Source: an uncultured Clostridia bacterium
GTDB lineage: Bacteria; Bacillota; Clostridia; Oscillospirales; Acutalibacteraceae
DNA: 64,000 nt
Reading direction: 5' to 3'
NCBI GenBank assembly: GCA_947589575.1
Contig: CANQBM010000001.1
Location: forward strand, 248,001-312,000
Below the pieces are notes generated by a model. That model was not told the DNA's origin and made no database searches. It was given only the letters and a program-made list of their open reading frames with translations. Position 1 is the stretch's first letter. Each line of letters begins with the position of its first letter. The translations under genes and the position numbers were made by a program. Below are positions 18,628-21,905 of the stretch, piece by piece.

Positions 18628-19110
18628 TCAGTATTTGTTTGCGCCGAGTATGTGTATGCCCTGCGCGGAAGAGTAATGATATGTATTTAAATTTCTCATA
18701 TACGAGTCGCCTGTATGCGCGCAAACCAATGGTGTTTCATCGGAAAAACCCGTAACAATCAGCGTGTGATAATAATTTGTGCCGTTATAGAGTGATATGA
18801 AATCGCCGGTTTCAAGTTTATTTATCGGAACGGCGACTGCAAACGGTCCTTCCCTTTTATTGTTGAGCATAAATTTTCTAAAATATTCTGCGCCGGACCA
18901 CGCCGCTGCTCTGTCGTCAGGGGAGTTATAGTACCAACCGACATCCTTTTCATAATTCATAACGCCTGCTCCCGCGAACAGGCATTGTGACGCAAAGTTT
19001 GTGCAGTCGCCTCCCATACCGTCAAAATTCATATACATACTGTTTCTTGATTTTGCCCATTTTTCAGCGTATTTAACTGCGCCGGCTCTGTTATAGCTGA
19101 TAAAGTGCAT
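18628..19110 (-). CDS. Putative amidase-domain protein (Amidase_6 type)
   Basis: A 160-residue protein resembling the Amidase_6 family of cysteine amidases, usually involved in cell-wall or peptide hydrolysis. The core is GMGGDCTNFASQCLFAGAG with the presumed catalytic Cys, followed by a Trp/Tyr-rich region (VGWYYNSPDDRAAAW) and TNYYHTLIVTG with the presumed His. The N-terminus YNRAGAVKYAEKWAKSRN is also typical. There is no signal peptide, although family members are often secreted, so localisation is unclear. The start at 19110 has a GAGGGA ribosome binding site. It is alone between terminators. Confidence 0.75.
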   Translation of the reverse strand: MHFISYNRAGAVKYAEKWAKSRNSMYMNFDGMGGDCTNFASQCLFAGAGVMNYEKDVGWYYNSPDDRAAAWSGAEYFRKFMLNNKREGPFAVAVPINKLETGDFISLYNGTNYYHTLIVTGFSDETPLVCAHTGDSYMRNLNTYHYSSAQGIHILGANKY

Positions 19111-19186
19111 TAGTATCCCTCTTCGGTTTAATTTTGTTATATAATAATTTATGAAATACTAATTATGGATATTGCAGTTTTTCAGA

Positions 19187-19235
19187 AAAAATAAGGATTC
19201 CGAAAGTTAATTGCTTTACGGAATCCTTATTTTTT
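19187..19235 (-). terminator. Strong terminator of the 22-codon gene
   Basis: AAAATAAGGATTCCG pairs with CGGAATCCTTATTTT (arms at about 19188-19202 and 19219-19233), with a further AAAG/CTTT pairing inside the loop and T runs on both strands. On the minus strand it ends the small gene at 19264. Confidence 0.9.
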
Positions 19236-19263
19236 ATTAAGCTTGTTTGTATCTCCGTTTTTT

Positions 19264-19332
19264 TTACTTTTTAACATAAGATTTGTCGCACTCTGCAAGA
19301 ATTCTTGCGCATTTCATAAGAAGTCTGAGCAT
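19264..19332 (-). CDS. 22-residue cysteine-containing peptide with its own promoter and terminator
   Basis: An unrecognised very short gene. The ATG at 19332 is preceded by AAAGGAGAGAG at ideal distance. The peptide begins MLRLLMKCARILAECDK and ends in SYVKK; it is amphipathic and basic, with two cysteines seven residues apart. A consensus promoter lies 33 bases upstream and a strong terminator lies 29 bases downstream, so the whole transcript would be only about 170 nucleotides. Upstream, yfbR ends in its own terminator, so the unit is isolated. The arrangement is that of a real, highly expressed small gene rather than a chance frame. Possible roles (regulatory peptide, membrane-active peptide, toxin, or simply a coding-looking small RNA) cannot be separated from sequence. 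Confidence 0.65.
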   Translation of the reverse strand: MLRLLMKCARILAECDKSYVKK

Positions 19333-19364
19333 AAGTCTCTCTCCTTTCGTTTTATGTTGCACAC

Positions 19365-19392
19365 ATTATAGCACTATAATTTCAAATGTCAA
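19365..19392 (-). promoter_or_regulatory. Consensus promoter for the 22-codon gene
   Basis: On the minus strand TTGACA (19392-19387) and TATAAT (19370-19365) both match the SigA consensus exactly, 16 bases apart, with TG one base before the -10 box (extended -10). Predicted transcription start is near 19358. Confidence 0.8.
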
Positions 19393-19489: not shown

Positions 19490-19533
19490 AAAATAAGGAC
19501 TTGTTACAAATGCAATAACAAGTCCTTATTTTA
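19490..19533 (-). terminator. Terminator of the hisS-aspS-yfbR operon
   Basis: AAAATAAGGACTTGTTA pairs with TAACAAGTCCTTATTTT (about 19490-19506 and 19516-19532). It starts immediately after the yfbR stop codon and has T runs on both sides. Confidence 0.9.
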
Positions 19534-19534
19534 T

Positions 19535-20119
19535 CTATTTTGTATGTTCGTCAAGAGTTAAATAATATCCGTCAAGGAAATTCTCTTTAAAGTACTTAAC
19601 CTCGTCAAGCTGTATTTCATCAATGATTTTTTCCTGTGCCTCTAACGCTTTTTCAAACTCAAGATTACCCATTCGGCGTTCTTCAATACATTTTATAAGC
19701 GCGCTGATTTTATCAGCCGCTTTTACAAGATGCCAAAGTTCTTTATCTTTTTCTTGCTTTTCAAACAAGGGGATATAATCGCTTTTGAATTCATCCGGCA
19801 GCATTGAAAGGAGTCTTTTTCCGGCAGTACGTTCAATATCCTTATAAACATTTTTTATGTCGCTGTTGTAATATTTTACGGGAGTGGGCATATCTCCCGT
19901 TATAACCTCGGTCGTATCGTGATAAAGCGCCAGCAGGCAGACGCGCTCGGGATTATAGCTTTTGCCGAATTTTTTATTTCCGATTAGCGCCAACGCGTGG
20001 GCAATAACAGCAACCGAGTGACTGTGCTCTGCAATGTTTTCCTTGGAAGTGTTTCTCATCAATGCCCATCTGTCGATAAGCTTCATACGATTAACCATTG
20101 CAAAAAAGTTACTGCTCAT
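19535..20119 (-). CDS. yfbR: HD-domain 5'-deoxynucleotidase (YfbR type)
   Basis: A 194-residue HD phosphohydrolase that resembles E. coli YfbR along most of its length. YfbR dephosphorylates deoxyribonucleoside 5'-monophosphates in a metal-dependent reaction. Shared segments include SNFFAMVNRMKLIDRWALMR, the EHS of NIAEHSHSVAVIAHAL, LYHDTTEVITGDMPTPVKY (the HD pair) and VKAADKISALIKCIEE. The ATG at 20119 has GGAGGG 4 bases upstream and overlaps the end of aspS by 11 bases; a longer frame upstream would lie inside aspS. Co-transcription with the two tRNA synthetases is likely. Confidence 0.9.
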   Translation of the reverse strand: MSSNFFAMVNRMKLIDRWALMRNTSKENIAEHSHSVAVIAHALALIGNKKFGKSYNPERVCLLALYHDTTEVITGDMPTPVKYYNSDIKNVYKDIERTAGKRLLSMLPDEFKSDYIPLFEKQEKDKELWHLVKAADKISALIKCIEERRMGNLEFEKALEAQEKIIDEIQLDEVKYFKENFLDGYYLTLDEHTK

Positions 20120-21905
20120 TATCTCCCTCCAAGGCTGAAATATTGATTCCGAGTTCCTTAAGCTGAATATCATCAATAACGCTCGGAGCTCCGCTCATAA
20201 GTTCGCTCGCATTCTGTACCTTTGGAAATGCCGTAACATCTCTTAAACTGTCCGCCCCGCAGATAATCATTGCAAGGCGGTCAAGACCGATTCCCATACC
20301 GCCGTGAGGAGGGGATGCGTAGTGATACGCTTCAACAAGAAAACCGAATTTTGCGTCAATTTCTTCTTTTTCCATTCCGAGAAGTTCAAACATTTTATTC
20401 TGCAAATTGCAATCTGTAATTCTCATTGAGCCTGAAGAAAGCTCCGTACCGTTTAATACAAGGTCAAACGCCTTTGCTCGTACTTTTCCTTTATCGGTAT
20501 CAAGATATTCGATACATTCCTCCATAGGCATTGTAAACGGGTGGTGCATTGCAACCCATTCTCCCGTTTCCTCATCCTGCTCAAAGAAAGGCATTTCGGT
20601 AATCCAAAGGTAATTCCATTTGCCCTTAGGAATTATATCAAGCTCTTTTGCAATAATAAGTCTGAGAGCGCCGAGAACCGACTGAGTGATTGATGTTTTG
20701 CCGGAAATGATAAATACGCAGTCGCCCTTTTCTGCGTTAAGTTCGGCAATGAGCGCATCAAGTTCGCCGTTTTTAAGAAATTTGTTAAAGGAGCAGGACG
20801 GCTCGTCTTCAGCCCAGCGTATGTAGGCAAGTCCCTTTGCTCCTATACCCTTAGCGTGTTCGGTCAATTTGTCAATTTTTTTTCTCGTATAGGTGGAGGC
20901 GGAATTTTTTGCAACAATGGCTTTGACCGAACCTCCGTCAGCAACAGCGTTTTTGAATACGGTAAAATCCGTCTTGCCGGCCCATTCGGTTATGTCGTTA
21001 ATCAGCATATCAAAACGTGTATCGGGTTTGTCCGAACCGTATTTTTCCATCGCCTGCGCAAATGTCATGCGGGGCAGAGGCATAGGAATATCCACGCCGA
21101 CCGTGTCTTTCATCAGCTTTGAAATAAAACCCTCTGCCATTTCCATAATATCCTCTGTGTCTACAAAGGACATTTCAAGGTCGATTTGAGTGAATTCAGG
21201 CTGTCTGTCCGCTCTTAAATCCTCATCTCTGAAACAGCGCGCAAGCTGAATGTAACGGTCAAATCCCGCTACCATACAAAGCTGCTTGTAAATCTGAGGG
21301 GATTGTGGAAGAGCGTAAAATTTACCATTGTGAACACGTGACGGTACAACGTAGTCCCTTGCACCTTCGGGTGTTGATTTTATCATCATCGGTGTTTCAA
21401 TTTCAATAAAATCATTATCATAAAAGTATTCTCTTGCGATTTTTGCTATTTTGTGCCGCATTAAAATATTTTGTGTAAGCTTTTGATTTCTTAGATTCAG
21501 ATAGCGGTACTTTAAGGTTGTCTCCTCTCCGACCCTTTTTGAATTTGCAATTTCAAACGGAGGGGTTTGGGATTTTGAAATAATGCGGAATTCCTTGACG
21601 TTTATTTCTATTTCTCCGGTCGGAATTTCCTTGTTTTTGCTTTCACGCTCGCATACCTTTCCTATGGCGGCAACGACGTATTCAGACCTTACCGACTGAG
21701 CCTTTGAAAAGATTTCTCTGTCTGTTGTATCATTAAAGGAGAGCTGAATAATTCCCGTTCTGTCCCTTAAATCAATGAAAATAAGATTTCCGAGATCACG
21801 CTGTCTTTGGCACCAGCCGAAGAGCGTAACCTCTTTGCCGGTGTCAGAGAGTCTAAGCTCACCGCAATAATTTGTTCTTTTTAATCCTTTAATTGATTCT
21901 GTCAT
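20109..21905 (-). CDS. aspS: Aspartyl-tRNA synthetase
   Basis: AspRS charges tRNA-Asp. The 598-residue length is that of the bacterial type, with N-terminal OB-fold anticodon domain (VTLFGWCQRQRDLGNLIFID), class II catalytic core, and the inserted GAD domain at about residues 290-420. Class II motif 2 is RCFRDEDLRADRQPEFTQID and motif 3 is GIGLDRLAMI near residue 545. It starts 2 bases after the hisS stop codon, and yfbR overlaps its end. hisS-aspS is a very common pair in Firmicutes. Whether it is discriminating or also charges tRNA-Asn cannot be told from sequence. Confidence 0.97.
   Translation of the reverse strand: MTESIKGLKRTNYCGELRLSDTGKEVTLFGWCQRQRDLGNLIFIDLRDRTGIIQLSFNDTTDREIFSKAQSVRSEYVVAAIGKVCERESKNKEIPTGEIEINVKEFRIISKSQTPPFEIANSKRVGEETTLKYRYLNLRNQKLTQNILMRHKIAKIAREYFYDNDFIEIETPMMIKSTPEGARDYVVPSRVHNGKFYALPQSPQIYKQLCMVAGFDRYIQLARCFRDEDLRADRQPEFTQIDLEMSFVDTEDIMEMAEGFISKLMKDTVGVDIPMPLPRMTFAQAMEKYGSDKPDTRFDMLINDITEWAGKTDFTVFKNAVADGGSVKAIVAKNSASTYTRKKIDKLTEHAKGIGAKGLAYIRWAEDEPSCSFNKFLKNGELDALIAELNAEKGDCVFIISGKTSITQSVLGALRLIIAKELDIIPKGKWNYLWITEMPFFEQDEETGEWVAMHHPFTMPMEECIEYLDTDKGKVRAKAFDLVLNGTELSSGSMRITDCNLQNKMFELLGMEKEEIDAKFGFLVEAYHYASPPHGGMGIGLDRLAMIICGADSLRDVTAFPKVQNASELMSGAPSVIDDIQLKELGINISALEGDNEQ

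Follow-up and report, generated by a model that had tools for sequence, protein, structure and literature searches.

The peptide gene and its surroundings in the window

Within the window, the 64-kb stretch of DNA analyzed as a whole, a compact transcription unit on the minus strand encodes an undescribed 22-residue peptide that belongs to no Pfam or NCBIfam family. Such a unit had been the core of the original prediction, and it is supported by our analysis; its exact TTGACA and TATAAT boxes with a 16-base spacer and extended TG, its ribosome site, ATG, 22 codons and stop are all read directly from the sequence. The unit and its neighbors are as follows.

19387..19392, minus strand: -35 box TTGACA (sequence and promoter scan)
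19365..19370, minus strand: -10 box TATAAT, preceded by TGC (extended TG), with a 16-base spacer (sequence and scan)
19333..19358, minus strand: 5' leader, short form without a 5' hairpin; transcription presumably starts a few nucleotides past TATAAT
19337-19347, minus strand: ribosome site AAAGGAGAGAG (sequence)
19332-19330, minus strand: ATG start codon (sequence)
19264..19332, minus strand: ORF of 22 codons plus stop, product MLRLLMKCARILAECDKSYVKK (homologs, purifying selection, Cys8)
19266-19264, minus strand: TAA stop codon (sequence)
about 19186-19235, minus strand: intrinsic terminator hairpin (transcript fold)
19490..19532, minus strand: inverted repeat, the terminator of the upstream yfbR gene, which insulates the peptide unit (by eye)
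19535..20176, minus strand: yfbR-like 5'-deoxynucleotidase, the left neighbor ("site 1"; PF12917, E 3e-79)
18628..19110, minus strand: Amidase_6 protein, the right neighbor (PF12671, E 6e-37)

The exact string TTGACA-N16-TATAAT occurs once in the window, as the promoter of the peptide gene, and three sites with at most one mismatch are present against 0.77 expected (three or more in 2 of 100 shuffles). A stronger argument against chance than this rarity is that 44 of the 80 genus genomes have kept the gene. A strong terminator hairpin is present, as had been claimed, although it pairs a little more than the 15 base pairs first given, with 17 contiguous and 4 inner pairs in the RNA folding of the transcript; it was missed by a simple terminator scan because its loop exceeds the length that the scan allows. 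The transcript as a whole folds with a z-score of -4.5 (0 of 200 shuffles equally stable), mostly owing to this terminator, which looks bidirectional because an A-run precedes it and a T-run follows it. The insulation of the unit by a yfbR terminator at 19490 was likewise borne out by the inverted repeat at 19490-19532, read by eye. The two terminators (19490-19532 and 19186-19235) have AAAATAAGGA in common at the start of the stem, and both are flanked by A- and T-runs, so that both may act bidirectionally. The Amidase_6 right neighbor is common to the window and a close relative (L067), and the other examined loci have different right neighbors. A search of the whole window against Rfam gave no match at gathering score, and locally only sub-threshold matches.

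Homologs and their range

A search with the single sequence found matches in 25 of 60 relatives (E up to 1), and three of its 30 loci (L026, L029, and L030) were dropped because their E values were at least 0.018 and the match had no start codon. A profile built from 39 sequences then identified 48 members, spread over 44 of the 80 genomes of the genus, including 30 of the 51 of high quality. No member was found in 36 of the 80 (21 of the 51 high-quality ones), and the gene is therefore dispensable in the genus. A 49th row of this search lay inside a 471-aa frame and was taken as chance.

Outside the genus, the profile search of 394 genomes of the order yielded no accepted member, with nine of the 12 weak matches read. 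At E up to 0.1, matches occurred in 14 of the 394 genomes: four within the genus (three strong, and one, G025, with a weak match only) and ten outside it, all weak (best E 0.005). The weak rows that were read are L055, L056, L057, L059, L060, L062, L064, L065, and L066, leaving out L058, L061, and L063. L064 and L066 are the beginning of a 478-aa frame containing "MKCAIILAGG," which we take to be GlmU-like, L055 and L059 have "MKCA[AV]IIAEY" inside long frames, and the remaining rows look like chance frames; all weak matches outside the genus were treated as chance. Among 398 genomes of the phylum (E up to 0.01), the window's own genome was the sole match, both genome sets being samples from larger groups. 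In a pattern-limited scan, 27 carrier loci were recorded under the names Eubacterium sp., Clostridium sp. CAG:678, Oscillospiraceae, Ruminococcaceae, Clostridiales, and Clostridia. The sample names of carriers include rumen, deer, goat, and rabbit, and the CAG records are presumably from the human gut.

In viral contigs, ten stretches fit the family pattern, which covers type A only (see below), and none was confirmed as a relative. Among PHROGs, phrog_5430 was weakly matched in 11 of 39 members (best 0.0069; in two members, residues 2-14 align with 29-41 of 52), phrog_30717 in three (best 0.0053), and three further families no better than 0.06; the matches were treated as chance and a phage or mobile origin was not adopted. 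PADLOC gave no match, NCBIfam no matching family, and Pfam hmmscan of 27 members (E up to 10) only TarS_C2 in two members (best 0.075). A sequence search of the PDB returned a single match (E 1.9), taken as chance, and motif strings of the peptide had no match in open-access papers.

Selection on the reading frame

The frame is under purifying selection at the protein level. Its conservation among relatives, on which the original prediction had staked itself, was found in two forms: all 48 profile matches are free of internal stops, and pN/pS lies between 0.22 and 0.32. The higher value is pooled over all pairs of 42 members (pS 0.75, pN 0.24) and the lower one comes from 142 close pairs, which are preferable because synonymous sites are close to saturated when all pairs are taken together. 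Codon-position entropy in the same members is 0.67/0.48/1.45, with the third position varying most. Five close pairs, each of different loci (L047/L020, L015/L011, L003/L040, L046/L008, and L034/L027), differ over codons 2-20 by two to five substitutions, all of them synonymous. Past about codon 21 conservation stops, and the 3' sequence varies freely between species.

The 42 members of this test set were chosen from the 48 with a motif in which Cys8, Ile11, and Ala13 are set, and these three residues are for that reason invariant within it. The six members outside the motif were read separately: all six have Cys8, one has Val11, another has Val9 and Val13 and lacks Ala18 and Tyr19, and one is truncated by a contig end. 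We are almost certain that this is a real protein-coding gene.

Expression signals across the family

A sense-strand promoter matching the consensus at 11 or more of its 12 bases precedes the ORF in 37 of 42 members, and the same number fit TTGAC[AT]-N16-TA[TC]A[AC]T and so have the 16-nt spacer; for some of the remaining five, the 110 bases examined include too short an upstream stretch. The ribosome site is kept along with the ORF. Of the 40 members with enough flank, 37 have a terminator-like hairpin no more than 200 nt from the stop, a count made without a shuffled control. Clear-promoter members have either a short leader without a 5' hairpin (12 of 37, the window's included) or a long one (25 of 37), and 22 of the 25 long leaders fold better than 95% of 300 shuffles. 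A significant 5' hairpin is thus present in 22 of 37, typically with its stem at the inferred first nucleotides, and the stem differs in sequence between species while its shape is constant. These leaders were folded one by one, and a MAFFT alignment of 21 of them, in which the hairpins were not lined up, was left unused. Stem-loops at the 5' terminus are a known means of message protection, and on this ground we read the hairpin as a stabilizer.

Antisense promoters, scored as sigma-70-type sites in the 42 members against mononucleotide shuffles, were at chance: no member had a site of at least 11/12 (0.6 expected), four had one of 10/12 (5.3 expected), and 26 had one of 9/12 (21.1 expected, sd 3.7). 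The sense promoter looks vegetative, and the cassette as a whole appears suited to making much peptide at a constant level. Abundance, which the original prediction had argued from the promoter, would fit both the promoter of at least 11/12 (37/42) and the 5' hairpin (22/37).

A tRNA search of own-genome loci with similar promoters found none. A second tiny ORF, of 28 codons (MGFLFGSICYSVAVIAGAKWCAKGKKKR; G000:C3:111599-111752, L097 from position 1501), lies behind a strong TTGACA/TATAAT promoter and, by eye, just upstream of an ABC-transporter ATPase-like gene; of the 80 genus genomes just three gave a match to this ORF, one of the matches having an internal stop. At G000:C12:8701-8729 (L100), a strong promoter-like site is followed by an inverted repeat with no evident ribosome site or ORF nearby, possibly a small RNA.

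Chromosomal sites and patchy presence

Members occupy two main chromosomal sites. Site 1, that of the window, holds 12 of 42 members, eight with yfbR directly upstream and four recognized only by neighbors on the side of what is presumably a KDPG-aldolase gene. Site 2 holds 24 of 42 and lies behind a SIR2 gene, usually together with a gene that we take to encode a putative lipoprotein; to its right is a phosphoglucomutase gene, an MFS_2 transporter gene, or a gene we regard as DUF3343-like, and one member was placed by this right side alone. The remaining six members are elsewhere or of undetermined site. YfbR, SIR2, PGM, and MFS_2 were named by Pfam and most other neighbors by eye; neighbors at the recurring sites look housekeeping or metabolic, ten proteins having been checked against Pfam, one of them without a match. 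In 6 of 28 loci, the first downstream ORF of 60 aa or more is convergent with the peptide gene.

Four genomes (G006, G036, G066, and G085) have two copies, in each case one of type A and one of type B. Three type-B second copies (L202, L203, and L204) define a third site, behind a C_GCAxxG_C_C gene and facing an S1-domain gene, as checked with Pfam on the L204 copies; L203 has one additional gene between the C_GCAxxG_C_C gene and the peptide gene. The C_GCAxxG_C_C gene, which encodes a putative redox protein, is thus near the type-B gene in three of the four two-copy genomes. With the conserved cysteine of the peptide, this neighbor makes a redox link tempting.

In a yfbR tree of 73 of the 80 genomes (four without a match and three with cut-off genes were left out), carriers and non-carriers are intermixed yet clustered, with 15 changes for the state "none" against 23.8 in shuffles. 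Two peptide-free species (L117 and L121) have yfbR, the hairpin, and an amidase like that of the window with no peptide unit between them, by eye. When 1,300 bases past yfbR (1,191 in one genome) were scanned in 22 genomes, the peptide was present in G079, G100, and G102, and no family-like ORF was seen in the other 19, five of which (G013, G024, G076, G094, and G095) have a promoter-like site there. We infer that the gene has long been part of the genus, that genomes can do without it, and that, as an intact unit, it can maintain itself at new locations; it may also have been passed from one species to another.

Conserved residues and predicted structure

Members are 20-31 residues long and follow the consensus M-x-K-L-L-x-K-C-A-x-I-L-A-x-x-D-x-A-Y-V. 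Cys8 is present in 48 of 48, Ile11 and Ala13 are each present in all but one, and Asp/Glu16, Ala18, and Tyr/Phe19 are near-invariant; the divergent member G079 lacks Ala13, Ala18, and Tyr19. Both cysteines noted in the original prediction are in the window peptide, and only the one at position 8 is conserved, Cys15 occurring in 2 of 40 distinct peptides. Two types can be distinguished, which we refer to as type A (DKAYV/DRAYV-like) and type B (DPAYV).

Of the 40 distinct peptides, 36 carry a net charge of +1 to +3. Residues 1-13 are amphipathic, with a mean hydrophobic moment of 0.51, a value that 3% of shuffles reach on average, and 0.69 in the window peptide, whereas residues 1-20 have an unremarkable moment (0.34, reached by 13% of shuffles). 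Mean hydrophobicity over residues 1-20 is 0.23, with several charges, and conservation by angle on a single ideal helix was not significant (P 0.12). An AlphaFold2 model, made for a 31-residue relative with 20 aligned sequences rather than for the 22-residue window peptide, has helices at 2-14 and 17-29 (mean pLDDT 85.7, pTM 0.39). The helix break falls at residues 15-16 of that relative, and type B has Pro17. A fold search found no similar solved structure.

Proposed function and alternatives

The reading that we favor, with a confidence just short of even, is that of an abundant, genus-restricted cytoplasmic small protein, encoded by a monocistronic gene and acting in trans by docking on a partner. 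The strong cassette would give a high, steady amount of peptide, whose conserved core, judging from the model of the 31-residue relative, would fold as two helices, one of residues 2-14 and one from residue 17 on, with the conserved Asp16 at the turn, where it probably caps the second helix. In the least certain step, the peptide would act in trans and stoichiometrically, docked on a partner protein, and Leu5-Cys8-Ala9-Leu12-Ala13-Asp16-Tyr19 would form much of the contact; Cys8 would be either buried in it or a point of redox chemistry or attachment. Action in trans is suggested by the several sites (12/42, 24/42, and 6/42) and by the convergent downstream ORF in 6 of 28 loci. The retention of specific residues (Cys8 in 48/48; Asp/Glu16, Ala18, and Tyr/Phe19) would count in favor of partner binding. 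Against it count the absence from 36 of 80 genomes, the angular test (P 0.12), the residue losses of G079, the origin of the model in a 31-residue relative and its pTM of 0.39, and the amphipathicity of residues 1-13, which fits a membrane peptide equally well.

A membrane-surface peptide is the main rival to partner binding, and a fairly unlikely one in our estimation: its N-terminal helix would lie on the inner membrane face, as in SpoVM, or it would be exported and membrane-active, as the phenol-soluble modulins are. The length of 20-31 residues, the charge of +1 to +3, the N-terminal moment (0.51; 0.69 in the window), and the strong expression signals suit it, but simple membrane binding needs no Cys8, Asp16, Ala18, or Tyr19, and over residues 1-20 the moment does not stand out (0.34). 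Among the roles named in the original prediction, a regulatory or a membrane-active small protein is still a candidate. SpoVM is a 26-residue amphipathic helix of spore formers whose partner is SpoIVA. The family resembles it in length and in the amphipathic N-terminal helix, and differs from it in the absence of a SpoVM Pfam match, the vegetative-looking promoter, Cys8, and the two-helix model; nor does it track SpoIVA, which the genus does have, in 35 of the 44 carriers of the peptide and 31 of the 36 non-carriers (Fisher P 0.56). Phenol-soluble modulins are similar in length, N-terminal amphipathic helix, and strong expression signals, whereas the present peptides have conserved Cys8, Asp16, and Tyr19 and single-gene units beside which no recurring transporter was seen, the MFS_2 protein found at part of site 2 being of the sugar-transporter type. 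A modified peptide or signal precursor of the PqqA or RiPP kind, with Cys8, Asp16, and Tyr19 modified, would also agree with the reactive Cys, Asp, and Tyr side chains that so short a chain (22 residues) conserves, and with the high expression expected of a precursor. PqqA, a cofactor precursor of similar length, likewise combines a conserved acidic residue with a Tyr in very few residues. We consider such a precursor improbable, as there is no NCBIfam family match and no recurring maturation or export gene was seen among the neighbors of the sites, most of them named by eye, although an unlinked enzyme is possible.

A regulatory or dual-function RNA, with the RNA as the main product, would account for the short transcript, the strong promoter and terminator, and, in 22 of 37 members, the significant hairpin at the 5' end; selection, however, tracks codon positions, the sequence past codon 21 is free to vary, and the window has no Rfam family at the gathering cut-off. 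We rate it very unlikely, and the earlier suggestion of a regulatory RNA with a coding look is not supported. Another early suggestion, a type I toxin restrained by an antisense RNA, draws on the tiny size of the ORF, on the promoter and terminator that it has to itself, and on its patchy presence. It is not supported either: antisense promoters are at chance in the 42 members, the average hydrophobicity seems low for a membrane span, and no relative was confirmed in viral contigs (with the type A pattern only); we regard it as extremely improbable. A short ORF followed by a terminator is also the arrangement of an attenuator leader, in which ribosome stalling controls the next gene. We give this reading almost no chance: the downstream genes differ, the peptide occurs in at least three contexts, and the reading is close to refuted because convergent next genes (6 of 28 loci) cannot be a target.

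Significance of the family

Most likely, this is a new small-protein family of a general kind that is already known. According to the Global Microbial smORF Catalogue (PMC11364881), undescribed genus-restricted small proteins are numerous. Set beside such proteins, the present family is alike in being a very short, conserved coding gene, domain-free and genus-restricted, and differs in that its cassette, 5' hairpin, paralogs, and chromosomal sites are worked out here for one family. The surprise is limited because undescribed genus-specific small proteins are common. A bolder proposal, rather unlikely in our view, would make these a new class of two-helix proteins in anaerobic gut Clostridia, ultra-small and very abundant, in which a single conserved cysteine would serve as a redox or covalent-attachment switch on a shared partner, expressed from a maximal cassette that mostly includes a 5' RNA stabilizer of changing sequence and constant shape.

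What has been gained is a very small, well-supported protein family of gut and rumen bacteria. Expression signals close to consensus made it visible in the bare sequence, which shows that tiny genes of this sort can be recognized by their promoter-to-terminator cassette. With one conserved cysteine, presence and absence in sister species, and two paralogous types, the family offers a precise target for learning what tiny, abundant proteins do.
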